From: Sulfitobacter sp. HGT1
GTDB taxonomy: Bacteria; Pseudomonadota; Alphaproteobacteria; Rhodobacterales; Rhodobacteraceae
NCBI RefSeq assembly: GCF_013282155.1
Contig: NZ_BLWI01000008.1
Span: 372,001-436,000 of the forward strand
Direction of reading: 5' to 3'
DNA length: 64,000 nt
Numbering within the stretch: the stretch's first letter is position 1; every line of letters starts with the position of its first letter. Under the pieces are notes generated by a model, which saw only the letters and a list, made by a program, of their open reading frames with translations, was not told the DNA's origin and searched no databases. The position numbers and the translations under genes are program-made. Below, one piece after another: positions 55,588-57,653 of the stretch.

Positions 55588-56658
55588 TTACGCCATCCCG
55601 CCCTTTATCAACCCTTCGGCAATGCGGGCATAGGCCTGCGCCATGGGACCATCGCCCGCTGCAATCGGCGTGCCACCGTCGCCGGCAAGGCGGGTATCCA
55701 GATCAATGGGCAGACTGCCCAGCAAGGGCACGCCGATCTTGTCCGCCTCGGCCGCGACACCGCCATGGCCGAATATCTGATGTTCGGACCCGCAATCGGG
55801 GCAGACAAACATCGACATGTTTTCGATCAGGCCGATAACCGGGGTTTTCAGGGTGTTGAACATGTCGATGGCCTTGCGCGCATCAATCAGCGCCACGTCT
55901 TGCGGGGTGGACACGACAATGGCCCCCGACAATTCGGACTTGGTACATAGTGTCAGCTGAACATCGCCTGTTCCGGGCGGCAGATCGACCAGCAGCACGT
56001 CAAGCTCGCCCCATTCAACCTGCCCCAACATCTGCTGCAGCGCCCCCATCAGCATCGGGCCACGCCAAACCACGGCTTTGCCTTCTTCCATCATGAAGCC
56101 GATCGACATCAGGGTTACGCCATGGGCGTGCAGGGGAATGATCGTTTTGCCATCGGGCGATGCGGGGCGTTTGTTGACCCCCATCATGCGCGGCTGGCTG
56201 GGGCCGTAAATATCAGCATCCAGCAGGCCAACCTTGCGCCCTGCCCGCGCCAGCGCCACCGCAAGGTTCGAACTGACGGTCGATTTGCCAACGCCACCCT
56301 TGCCCGACCCGATGGCCAGAATCCGCTGCACGCCTTTGGGCTTGGTGGGGCCGTCCTGCGGCTTGGGATGGCCGCCGATCTTGAGGCTGGGTGCCGGAGC
56401 CTTGGGCGCGGGGCCATGGGCGGTCAGGGCCACGGTGACGGAGCTCACACCCTCCATCGCCTTTACCACCTGTTCGGCCGCATCACGCAAAGGGGCCATT
56501 TGCGCGGCCACCTGCGCATTCGGGGCCTCGATCACGAAACGCACGACATCCCCGTCGATCGTCAAAGCACGAATCAAATCATGGGCAAGGATGGATTTCC
56601 CATCCGGCATTGTGACGCGTTCCAGTTCAGCTTCGACTTGAGCTTTTGTAACGGGCAT
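55588..56658 (-). CDS. mrp: Iron-sulfur cluster carrier ATPase Mrp/ApbC
   Basis: A 356-aa ParA-like ATPase. The N-terminal about 80 residues form a DUF59/MIP18-type domain. The deviant Walker A IGSGKGGVGKSTVSSNLA is near residue 115; DVLLVDLPPGTGDVQLTL near 215 is Walker B; FVCPDCGSEHQIFG near 270 contains the CxxC that binds a bridging Fe-S cluster. ATG 56658 has AAGGAAAACGAT upstream; the frame to 56736 adds unconserved residues. Probably monocistronic. Confidence 0.95.
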   Translation of the reverse strand: MPVTKAQVEAELERVTMPDGKSILAHDLIRALTIDGDVVRFVIEAPNAQVAAQMAPLRDAAEQVVKAMEGVSSVTVALTAHGPAPKAPAPSLKIGGHPKPQDGPTKPKGVQRILAIGSGKGGVGKSTVSSNLAVALARAGRKVGLLDADIYGPSQPRMMGVNKRPASPDGKTIIPLHAHGVTLMSIGFMMEEGKAVVWRGPMLMGALQQMLGQVEWGELDVLLVDLPPGTGDVQLTLCTKSELSGAIVVSTPQDVALIDARKAIDMFNTLKTPVIGLIENMSMFVCPDCGSEHQIFGHGGVAAEADKIGVPLLGSLPIDLDTRLAGDGGTPIAAGDGPMAQAYARIAEGLIKGGMA

Positions 56659-56792
56659 ATCGTTTTCCTTCTTATCCAGGGTTTTGACATGGCAGTTTTT
56701 GACCAAACCGCAAGAGCCTGTCGCCACACTGCCCACGCAAGCAGCAAAGCCCGAAATATCTGCCTAGAAAATAATCAAACCCCCTATGTTTC

Positions 56793-56838
56793 TGCTGCAT
56801 AGCTGCATTGCAGAATTTATATTTGTGCAACTGCAGCA
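56793..56838 (+). repeat. 46-bp duplicated element, copy 1
   Basis: Begins TGCTGCATAG and ends GCAGCA. Against the copy at 57016-57061 it is identical over positions 1-11, 13-18, 31-37 (TTGTGCA) and 41-46. It lies 42 bases before the upstream CCUCC hairpin pair. The ends are inverted (TGCTGCA...TGCAGCA). Likely a promoter/operator; a possible -10-like TATATT lies inside this copy only. Confidence 0.7.
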
Positions 56839-56879
56839 AATAGGTCAGAAAGGTTTCAGGACAGCACAAGCTGCTGACC

Positions 56880-56925
56880 AACAGAAAGACCAGACGCATC
56901 CATCCTCCTCCCGGATGTTTCTGTT
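56880..56925 (+). ncRNA. Upstream cuckoo-type hairpin 1 (CCUCCUCCC loop)
   Basis: AACAGAAA (56880-56887) pairs with TTTCTGTT (56918-56925), and CATCC with GGATG, leaving a loop with CCTCCTCCC. The left strand has a 9-base bulge. TTTT follows partly. Loop carries the anti-Shine-Dalgarno sequence typical of CcsR/cuckoo sRNAs. A further GGTCAG/CTGACC pairing (56843-56848 with 56874-56879) precedes it. Confidence 0.7.
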
Positions 56926-56928
56926 TTA

Positions 56929-56972
56929 GGCGACGGCACCCTCCTCCTCCCTGGTGTCGTCGCCATTTTTTT
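56929..56972 (+). ncRNA. Upstream cuckoo-type hairpin 2 with terminator tail
   Basis: GGCGACGGCACC (56929-56940) pairs with GGTGTCGTCGCC (56953-56964), all 12 positions with one G-U, around a 12-base loop CTCCTCCTCCCT. ATTTTTTTG follows, so it is also an intrinsic terminator. It ends the short unit that starts behind element copy 1, with no ORF in between. Confidence 0.75.
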
Positions 56973-57015
56973 GTCAAAATTTTTCAGGACCTTACGTCAA
57001 CTTTGCTTATGCATT

Positions 57016-57061
57016 TGCTGCATAGCAGCATTGACGACATGTGCATTGTGCAGACGCAGCA
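57016..57061 (+). repeat. 46-bp duplicated element, copy 2
   Basis: Same ends and spacing as the copy at 56793. Here the left end forms the palindrome TGCTG-CATAG-CAGCA. It lies 70 bases before the DUF1127 start, where a promoter/operator is expected. No convincing sigma-70 -35/-10 pair could be placed. Confidence 0.7.
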
Positions 57062-57130
57062 TCTTCCTACATATGGATCACAAGGAAACGCAGACGACGC
57101 AAACGCAGACGAAACAAACGAGGTGCTGAA

Positions 57131-57343
57131 ATGGCATATGTAAACGCAACAACCGCTCCTTCCATCGCAGACCGCTTTAACGCTGTTCTGTCCATGATCG
57201 CGACGCGCCGCAAACAAGCCCGCGTATACCGCGCCACATTCGACGAGCTGAGCTCGCTCTCGAACCGTGAATTGGCAGACCTCGGCATGAGCCGTTCACA
57301 AATCCGCAGCATCGCTCTGGAAACAGGCCGCAACGCTGCCTAA
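57131..57343 (+). CDS. DUF1127 protein (CcaF1-like)
   Basis: A 70-aa basic protein; the C-terminal half has the DUF1127 block (TFDELSSLSNRELADLGMSR followed by SQIRSIA), with arginines before it (ATRRKQARVYRATF). ATG 57131 follows GAGGTGCTGAA; upstream frame residues are not part of it. In R. sphaeroides the equivalent CcaF1 binds RNA, is stress-induced and lies upstream of the CcsR sRNAs with which it is cotranscribed; here too hairpins with CCUCC loops begin 15 bases after the stop. Function here is inferred from that parallel. Confidence 0.92.
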   Translation: MAYVNATTAPSIADRFNAVLSMIATRRKQARVYRATFDELSSLSNRELADLGMSRSQIRSIALETGRNAA

Positions 57344-57357
57344 ATGAATTGAGATCG

Positions 57358-57385
57358 GACACACACATCCTCCCTGTTGTGTGTC
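57358..57385 (+). ncRNA. Cuckoo/CcsR-type hairpin 1
   Basis: GACACACA and TGTGTGTC (8 bp, perfect) enclose CATCCTCCCTGT, with CCUCCC in the loop. First of four tandem hairpins behind DUF1127. Confidence 0.8.
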
Positions 57386-57390
57386 TGTAG

Positions 57391-57431
57391 AAGGCCTACG
57401 GTTTCCTCCTCCTCCCTGAAACCACGGCCTT
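57391..57431 (+). ncRNA. Cuckoo/CcsR-type hairpin 2
   Basis: AAGGCC and GGTTTC on the left pair with GAAACC and GGCCTT on the right, with a small internal bulge; loop CTCCTCCTCCCT carries CCUCCUCCC. Confidence 0.8.
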
Positions 57432-57436
57432 CATAA

Positions 57437-57477
57437 ACGTCTCCTTCCTCCTTTCCTCCCGATTGGATTGGAGACGT
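57437..57477 (+). ncRNA. Cuckoo/CcsR-type hairpin 3
   Basis: ACGTCTCC pairs with GGAGACGT (8 bp). The 25-base loop holds two CCTCC motifs (TTCCTCCTTTCCTCCC), more than the other hairpins. Confidence 0.75.
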
Positions 57478-57485
57478 CGAAAAAG

Positions 57486-57517
57486 ACGGCGGTGCTTTCC
57501 TCCCAAAGCGCCGCCGT
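57486..57517 (+). ncRNA. Cuckoo/CcsR-type hairpin 4 and terminator
   Basis: ACGGCGGTGCTTT pairs with AAAGCGCCGCCGT (13 bp with one G-U) around CCTCCC. TCTTTATTTC follows, so this last hairpin also ends transcription. Confidence 0.85.
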
Positions 57518-57653
57518 TCTTTATTTCAAAGGCACCCATTTTCAGAAATCCGGTATTTACGGGCATCAGGTGCGTGGTGGGCCAAGGTTTGCTCTGGGGG
57601 ACAAAACGGATCTTCAAGATCATCTAGCGAAGCTCCGCTTTGGTCGATGAACT

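Follow-up and report, generated by a model that had tools for sequence, protein, structure and literature searches.

Layout of the locus

Between the divergently oriented mrp gene and a gene for a small DUF1127 protein lies a pair of hairpins with CCUCC loops. Both genes are part of the window, by which we mean the whole 64-kb stretch of Sulfitobacter sp. HGT1 DNA that was analysed. The features are as follows.

55588..56658, minus strand: mrp, encoding a Mrp/NUBPL-type P-loop ATPase, divergent neighbour (Pfam ParA/NUBPL, 325.8 bits)
56785..56838, plus strand: promoter element, copy 1 of the 46-bp element (repeat D1)
56823..56828, plus strand: TTGTGC, putative -35 hexamer of the predicted sRNA gene (present in 55/55 units of the genus)
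about 56858, plus strand: predicted transcript start
56859..56879, plus strand: 5' hairpin of the predicted transcript (folding against shuffles in the genus units)
56891..56923, plus strand: anti-SD hairpin 1, loop AUCCUCCUCCC (folding, covariation, Rfam CcsR1 match)
56929..56972, plus strand: anti-SD hairpin 2 and intrinsic terminator (stem-loop 56929-56964, T-run 56966-56972)
57008..57061, plus strand: promoter element, copy 2, the DUF1127 promoter
57131..57343, plus strand: gene for the 70-aa DUF1127 protein, which resembles CcaF1 in domain and layout (PF06568, 47 bits)
57356..57521, plus strand: four CCUCC-loop hairpins downstream of DUF1127 (full CCUCCUCCC kept in one of the four)

The first-pass annotation had described two CCUCC-loop hairpins upstream of DUF1127, and these are real, since both fold (hairpin 1 with -12.7 kcal/mol, z -2.2; hairpin 2 with -23.3 kcal/mol, z -6.0) and both stems covary. 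It had also seen a T-run behind the second hairpin, where seven T indeed follow directly, and had counted six anti-SD hairpins around one gene, which is correct with two on the 5' side of DUF1127 and four on the 3' side. The upstream unit stands behind its own copy of the element, as had been noted, the two copies (56785-56838 and 57008-57061) being 54 nt each and 70% identical. Read-through from mrp, which had been raised as an explanation that would do away with a separate gene, is excluded because mrp lies on the minus strand and runs in the opposite direction.

In agreement with the earlier view that no ORF separates element and hairpins, no conserved ORF was found in the upstream unit among 55 units of the genus. 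A start-to-stop frame of at least 20 aa past the predicted start occurs in only seven of them, and the ATG within the element (56786 here), which is 5' of the predicted transcript start, opens frames whose length varies between 10 and at least 200 codons across the 54/55 units that have it. With a -35 box, a 5' hairpin, two anti-SD hairpins and a terminator, the most fitting interpretation of the upstream unit is that of an independent sRNA gene belonging to the cuckoo/CcsR1/ar14 type, whose RNA would be about 114 nt long as predicted from its putative start and terminator.

In the whole genome, the loop sequence CCTCCTCCC occurs seven times, three of them at this locus, and there are four DUF1127 genes in all. 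The closest named relatives of the DUF1127 protein studied here are those of Sulfitobacter sp. CW3 and S. marinus, with 94% identity.

Conservation of the upstream unit

The upstream unit was found in 55 of the 58 genomes of the genus, at one locus per genome, although related genomes are not independent observations and all counts within the genus have to be read in this light. One further locus (L138, at the same place as L167) was left out of the 55, and 17 loci lacking the unit were set aside, namely additional DUF1127 loci in these genomes and the DUF1127 loci in G004 and G005. No such unit turned up in G004 (64% complete), G006 (84%) and G005 (99%).

Covariation supports both upstream stems, as judged from alignments that without repeated rows hold 49 (A1, hairpin 1) and 38 rows (A2, hairpin 2) of 55 each. 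In stem 1, which is variable, 86.6% of cells are paired, double-change cells number 115 and 10 of 11 pairs show change on both sides; the covariation score is 0.579, compared with 0.241 in shuffled and at most 0.170 in slid controls. Stem 2, which is fairly conserved in the genus, has 99.1% of cells paired and 22 double-change cells, with a score of 0.257 against 0.169 and at most 0.131, respectively. The slid controls weigh most because kinship of the sequences inflates the contrast with shuffles. From the alignment of the whole unit, nine four-hairpin units and one identical row were left out.

The remaining parts of the predicted transcript are also recurrent. The stretch of the 5' hairpin folds better than its shuffles in 54 of the 55 units, by more than 1 s.d. 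in 48 (mean z -2.26), and its first paired base falls 16-23 nt past the element (median 21), which is about where a -35 box at TTGTGC would place the transcript start. In one group of relatives, the 5' hairpin itself carries a CCUCCC loop. A T-run with at least six T in 8 nt follows hairpin 2 in 42/55 units and is weak in 13, nine four-hairpin units among them. These belong to nine relatives (L069-L071, L073, L074 and L155-L158) with four upstream hairpins and weak T-runs, as would result from copying of the first hairpin.

Beyond the genus, the family was sampled at about one genome per genus (120 genomes), of which 104 had a DUF1127 match, 102 of these in other genera; 88 of the 102 were examined. 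A divergent Mrp match starts 186-427 nt upstream of DUF1127 at 54 of these 88 loci, is further off at two and is missing from the stretch at 32. Any CCUCC hairpin within 500 nt upstream was seen at 18 loci, and the three with the full 9-mer were inspected one by one. A single ORF-less upstream unit emerged from these three (1/88), at L246 in G189, with three full-motif upstream hairpins, a terminator-like T-run and a single downstream hairpin; it is perhaps an independent case of an upstream unit in another genus. Two candidates, L214 and L220, were rejected as upstream units, their hairpins belonging to a preceding DUF1127 ORF. With a stand-alone upstream unit at 1/88 loci of other genera, the usual layout is therefore the one given in the first-pass annotation, with sRNA hairpins only downstream of DUF1127. 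Whether the upstream pair is fixed or lineage-specific, a question left to gene order in that annotation, can be answered on both counts, the pair being nearly fixed in the genus (55/58) and nearly absent outside it (1/88). The upstream gene thus appears nearly specific to this genus.

Loop motifs upstream and downstream

In the same 55 genomes, the full nine-letter loop CCTCCTCCC is present in 115 of 142 upstream hairpins vs 40 of 207 downstream ones. The share per genome is higher upstream in 52, lower in one and tied in two, and the last two upstream hairpins both have the full motif in 42. At the 88 loci of other genera, 11 of which have no hairpin, 263 of 334 downstream hairpins have the full 9-mer, as do 175 of 196 at a separate set of 30 named loci of other genera (a count that excludes L046, L048 and L057-L060). 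On these figures the stand-alone gene seems to have taken over the canonical RNA, the operon-bound copies being degenerate.

Comparison with Rfam models yielded no match at gathering score in the 64-kb window. In a permissive search, CcsR1 (RF02791) matched the upstream unit over its full length (56886-56968) with 42.1 bits (E 8.9e-9), below its gathering score of 65.3, and the downstream stretches with 22.5 and 14.5 bits (E 0.0057 and 1.3). The upstream unit was the best CcsR1 match at seven of eight genus loci scanned, no CcsR1 match being found in L082, and the highest score was 60.4 bits (L067), all of them below the gathering score. The ar14 model (RF02344) is less decisive in separating upstream from downstream hairpins. 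It gave 41.6 bits (E 3.8e-6) for the upstream unit and 37.4 bits (E 3.3e-5) for 57387-57522 downstream, both below its gathering score of 58.8, and in L090 the downstream match is the better one (43.0 vs 38.5 bits). Cuckoo RNAs, as their definition is quoted in PMC4504443, have two to four hairpins and a conserved loop motif, and this describes the upstream unit, with two anti-SD hairpins here and four in nine genomes.

The promoter element

The pattern TGCTGCATAGCWGCATTG has exact matches at the two copies of the element and nowhere else in the 3.8-Mb genome, with nine more matches at three mismatches. A profile trained on 74 of the 88 loci of other genera reads.ATGCa.tTgCTGCATaGCaGCATTG - 11 or 12 nt - ATTGTGCA...GCAGCA, by which the element is a putative promoter element of DUF1127 genes throughout the family. 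The upstream copy scores above all 176 shuffled regions in 55/55 genomes and the DUF1127 copy in 54/55. The upstream copy outscores the other in only 36 of 55; within the clade of the window, it is the one before DUF1127 that is the more canonical (72.9 vs 42.5 bits here).

A -10-like hexamer follows TTGTGC, scoring on average above control spacings at 15-18 nt in 54 upstream units and best at 16-18 nt in 69 loci of other genera (as in CCTATCTT or CCCCATGTT). In this strain's clade the -10 of the upstream unit is weak (CAGAAA-like). The DUF1127 promoter has its -35 TTGTGC at 57046-57051 and its -10 TACATA at 57068-57073, beyond the end of the repeat.

The first-pass annotation had seen in the upstream unit an orphan sRNA gene made by partial duplication. 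Its stand-alone nature and its duplicated promoter copy agree with this; the notion of a lone or decaying relic does not, the unit being kept in 55/58 genomes with the better preserved loops. Duplication itself holds for the promoter, which is clearly a second copy, but not so readily for the upstream hairpins, which match no single downstream hairpin well. No hairpin stood out as the donor, the best matches being second-position hairpins of other genera with 43% mean identity.

A candidate activator

Work on related bacteria offers a guide to the regulator. LsrB of S. meliloti is reported to bind TGCA-N6-GCAT at -72 to -60 of NfeR1, which needs LsrB (PMC10746234). Binding of LsrB is also reported for the promoter of abcR1, where GCAT-N3-TG-N3-T lies between -61 and -49 (PMC8844928). 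Brucella VtlR, with the motif CAATGCAGCCATGCA, is described as activating three DUF1127 genes and AbcR2 (PMC12595884). One of the two LsrB motifs is found near -72 to -49 in the upstream copy of this strain, in the form of an exact GCAT-N3-TG-N3-T at 56797-56809, 26 nt 5' of TTGTGC; the same copy has TGCA-N6-GCAA at 56826-56839, reaching one base beyond the repeat. TGCA-N6-GCAT is present in the DUF1127 copy at 57010-57023 and again at 57049-57062, the latter running past the repeat. The reverse complement of the VtlR motif, TGCATGGCTGCATTG, and TGCATAGCTGCATTG in this strain's upstream copy are one base apart.

At 64/88 loci of other genera the promoter contains TGCA-N6-GCAT at some position, compared with 0.34 expected; at 44/88 the motif lies 36-37 nt upstream of TTGTGC, near -72 when that hexamer is taken to begin at -36. 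GCAT-N3-(T/A)G-N3-T is found 26-27 nt upstream of the hexamer (about -62) at 50/88 of these loci and in 53/55 upstream units of the genus. The exact GCAT-N3-TG-N3-T is confined to 8/88 promoters of other genera and 3/55 upstream units, most having AG for TG, and it also arises by chance, with nine places in the window when both strands are counted. Only 6/55 upstream units have TGCA-N6-GCAT near -72, and in this strain that half-site reads TGTT. A LysR-like pattern had no match in the 64-kb window. The description of R. sphaeroides ccaF1 as driven by RpoHI/RpoHII (PMC10253847) was counted against this kind of control. Because motif, position and kind of target match, a LysR-type activator of the LsrB/VtlR type is nevertheless the best candidate for the putative regulator of the element.

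Other DUF1127 loci

Several relatives in the genus (L142-L148, L173, L175, L176, L178 and L180) have a second DUF1127-cuckoo operon, which was not seen in the window's own genome (L001-L004). The eight examined consist of two tandem DUF1127-like ORFs followed by two or three hairpins with CCUCC or CUCC loops, and two CTGC-N3-GCAG (PhaR-like) sites often flank the -10. On contig C10 of the window's genome (L009, at about 24.5 kb), a short ORF and a small CCTCCC-loop hairpin precede another DUF1127 gene. At about position 1653 of L005 (contig C1, about 260.65 kb) there is a DUF1127 gene without cuckoo hairpins, with TGCTGCATGGCAGCA upstream on the opposite strand. G067, a 99%-complete member of the genus, has no detectable PhaR or PhaC, which could reflect PHB loss or an assembly gap.

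Alternative explanations

PhaR is a competing regulator, in which case the element would be its operator and the sRNA would answer to the level of polyhydroxybutyrate. We regard this as unlikely. In its favour, CTGCATAGCAG/CTGCATTGCAG fits the PhaR site CTGCNNNGCAG described in R. sphaeroides (PMC12542648), sites of the CTGCNNNGCAG type are found in the phaR and phaP promoters of the genus, PhaR-type sites lie around the -10 of the second DUF1127-cuckoo operon, and the S. meliloti sRNA MmgR is reported to be repressed by PhaR. The centre of the site, though, is R-N-Y in all tabulated phaP and phaR sites of the genus vs ATA (38) or ATG (17) in 55/55 upstream elements. Compared with PhaR-type operators, the element does contain CTGCNNNGCAG, its consensus lacking the R-N-Y centre and this strain's upstream copy having an R-N-Y site in CTGCATTGCAG. 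PhaR is absent from three of 80 genomes searched. One of them, G084, has a degenerate element, which speaks for PhaR, while G186 (92% complete) keeps its DUF1127 element and G067, which lacks PhaC as well, has an intact upstream element that fits the consensus with 0 mismatches; phaR lies near phaC, so that one assembly gap could explain both absences in G067. A search for Phasin_2 in this connection gave no match. On balance, PhaR as the regulator is disfavoured by these sequence comparisons.

Two further readings were weighed. The hairpin pair might be an attenuator or 5' leader of DUF1127, so that transcripts begun at the first element would mostly end at 56972 and extend into DUF1127 under stress. 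It is on the same strand as DUF1127 and adjacent to it, attenuation has been reported for a DUF1127 gene in S. meliloti (PMC12218461), the T-run is weak in 13/55 units and many members of the genus have a degenerate element in front of DUF1127. Still, in this strain DUF1127 is preceded by an element, a -35 and a -10 of its own and the terminator is strong, and a plain attenuator would have no need of covarying stems with anti-SD loops, which makes this reading rather improbable. That the unit is a decaying duplicate without function can hardly be maintained. The promoter is partially duplicated, as such a relic would have it, but the unit persists in 55/58 genomes, with compensatory changes in its stems and loops that are mostly intact; the absence from close relatives with random decay that the first-pass annotation had named as a refutation was not observed.

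Proposed mechanism and origin

The explanation that we consider likely is a stand-alone anti-SD sRNA gene with a copied DUF1127 promoter element, control of the LsrB/VtlR type and its own terminator, which would be the main carrier of canonical loops. Transcription would start at about 56858 from a promoter carrying a copy of the family-wide DUF1127 element, at which a LysR-type activator of the LsrB/VtlR kind would bind, possibly in response to redox or nitrogen stress if LsrB is a guide. The 5' hairpin would cap the RNA and the second anti-SD hairpin would end it at about 114 nt. Its two CCUCCUCCC loops, if they act as in the known families, would mask the ribosome-binding sites of several mRNAs and lower their translation. 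A search of the genome for the exact complement GGGAGGAGG, which covers exact pairing only, gave four other sites and no convincing start codon.

As to origin, the ancestor of the genus would have duplicated the DUF1127 promoter along with two hairpins. The stand-alone gene would then have become the main carrier of canonical loops while the operon-bound hairpins downstream lost the full motif, and the dose of sRNA would thereby be uncoupled from that of DUF1127 protein. Because the ends of the RNA would be those of transcription start and stop, both RNase E release and the DUF1127 protein would be dispensable. The earlier proposal that the RNA is processed in trans by the neighbouring DUF1127 protein is therefore unsupported, the predicted start and terminator already defining both ends, although an effect of this protein on sRNA stability is possible.

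Relation to known systems

The kind of RNA (cuckoo, CcsR, ar14) is already known, and so is the rhizobial NfeR1 as a stand-alone gene. The locus shares paired CCUCCUCCC-loop hairpins beside a DUF1127 gene with the CcsR1-4/ccaF1 locus of Rhodobacter sphaeroides (RF02791; CIN1 layout). There, however, RNase E is described as releasing CcsR1-4 from the ccaF1 transcript (PMC10253847), whereas the Sulfitobacter unit lies upstream with its own promoter element and terminator, which argues against such a release from DUF1127 mRNA for the predicted RNA. With NfeR1/ar14 of rhizobia (RF02344), the unit has in common a stand-alone anti-SD sRNA of similar size and, next to the LsrB site reported in the NfeR1 promoter, an LsrB-like motif. 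NfeR1 differs in its 123 nt with three CCUCCUCCC hairpins (two and a 5' hairpin here) and in its reported NtrC control (PMC10746234), the Sulfitobacter unit being linked to DUF1127. The targets of LsrB/VtlR (AbcR1/2, VrsA and small proteins of Brucella) illustrate how one LysR-type regulator drives both sRNAs and small DUF1127 genes; unlike the Sulfitobacter unit, AbcR RNAs form another, Hfq-binding family, and the regulator established there is a candidate here.

The genus-wide upstream gene, the degeneration of the operon copies and an LsrB/VtlR-type box in Rhodobacteraceae were not described among the literature matches listed, while the founding papers (Reinkensmeier 2015, Grutzner 2021, Billenkamp 2015) may mention them. 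Titles and abstracts on CcaF1, LsrB, NfeR1 and CcsR1 make no link between the CcsR RNAs of Rhodobacteraceae and LsrB/NfeR1, and no paper on DUF1127, Roseobacter and sRNA was found by title or abstract.

We give about even odds to the wider idea that the DUF1127-cuckoo locus of Rhodobacteraceae corresponds to the LsrB/VtlR-NfeR1-DUF1127 circuit of rhizobia and that in Sulfitobacter (and perhaps again in another genus, at L246) the sRNA has escaped the protein operon, the operon copies then degenerating. The locus amounts to a natural experiment on the co-transcription of sRNA and DUF1127. No viable ccaF1 deletion strain is reported to have been obtainable in R. sphaeroides (PMC10253847); here, RNA and protein would be separately deletable. 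It also points to one LysR-type regulator as a possible link between the CcsR RNAs in Rhodobacteraceae and, in rhizobia, NfeR1/AbcR and the DUF1127 genes.
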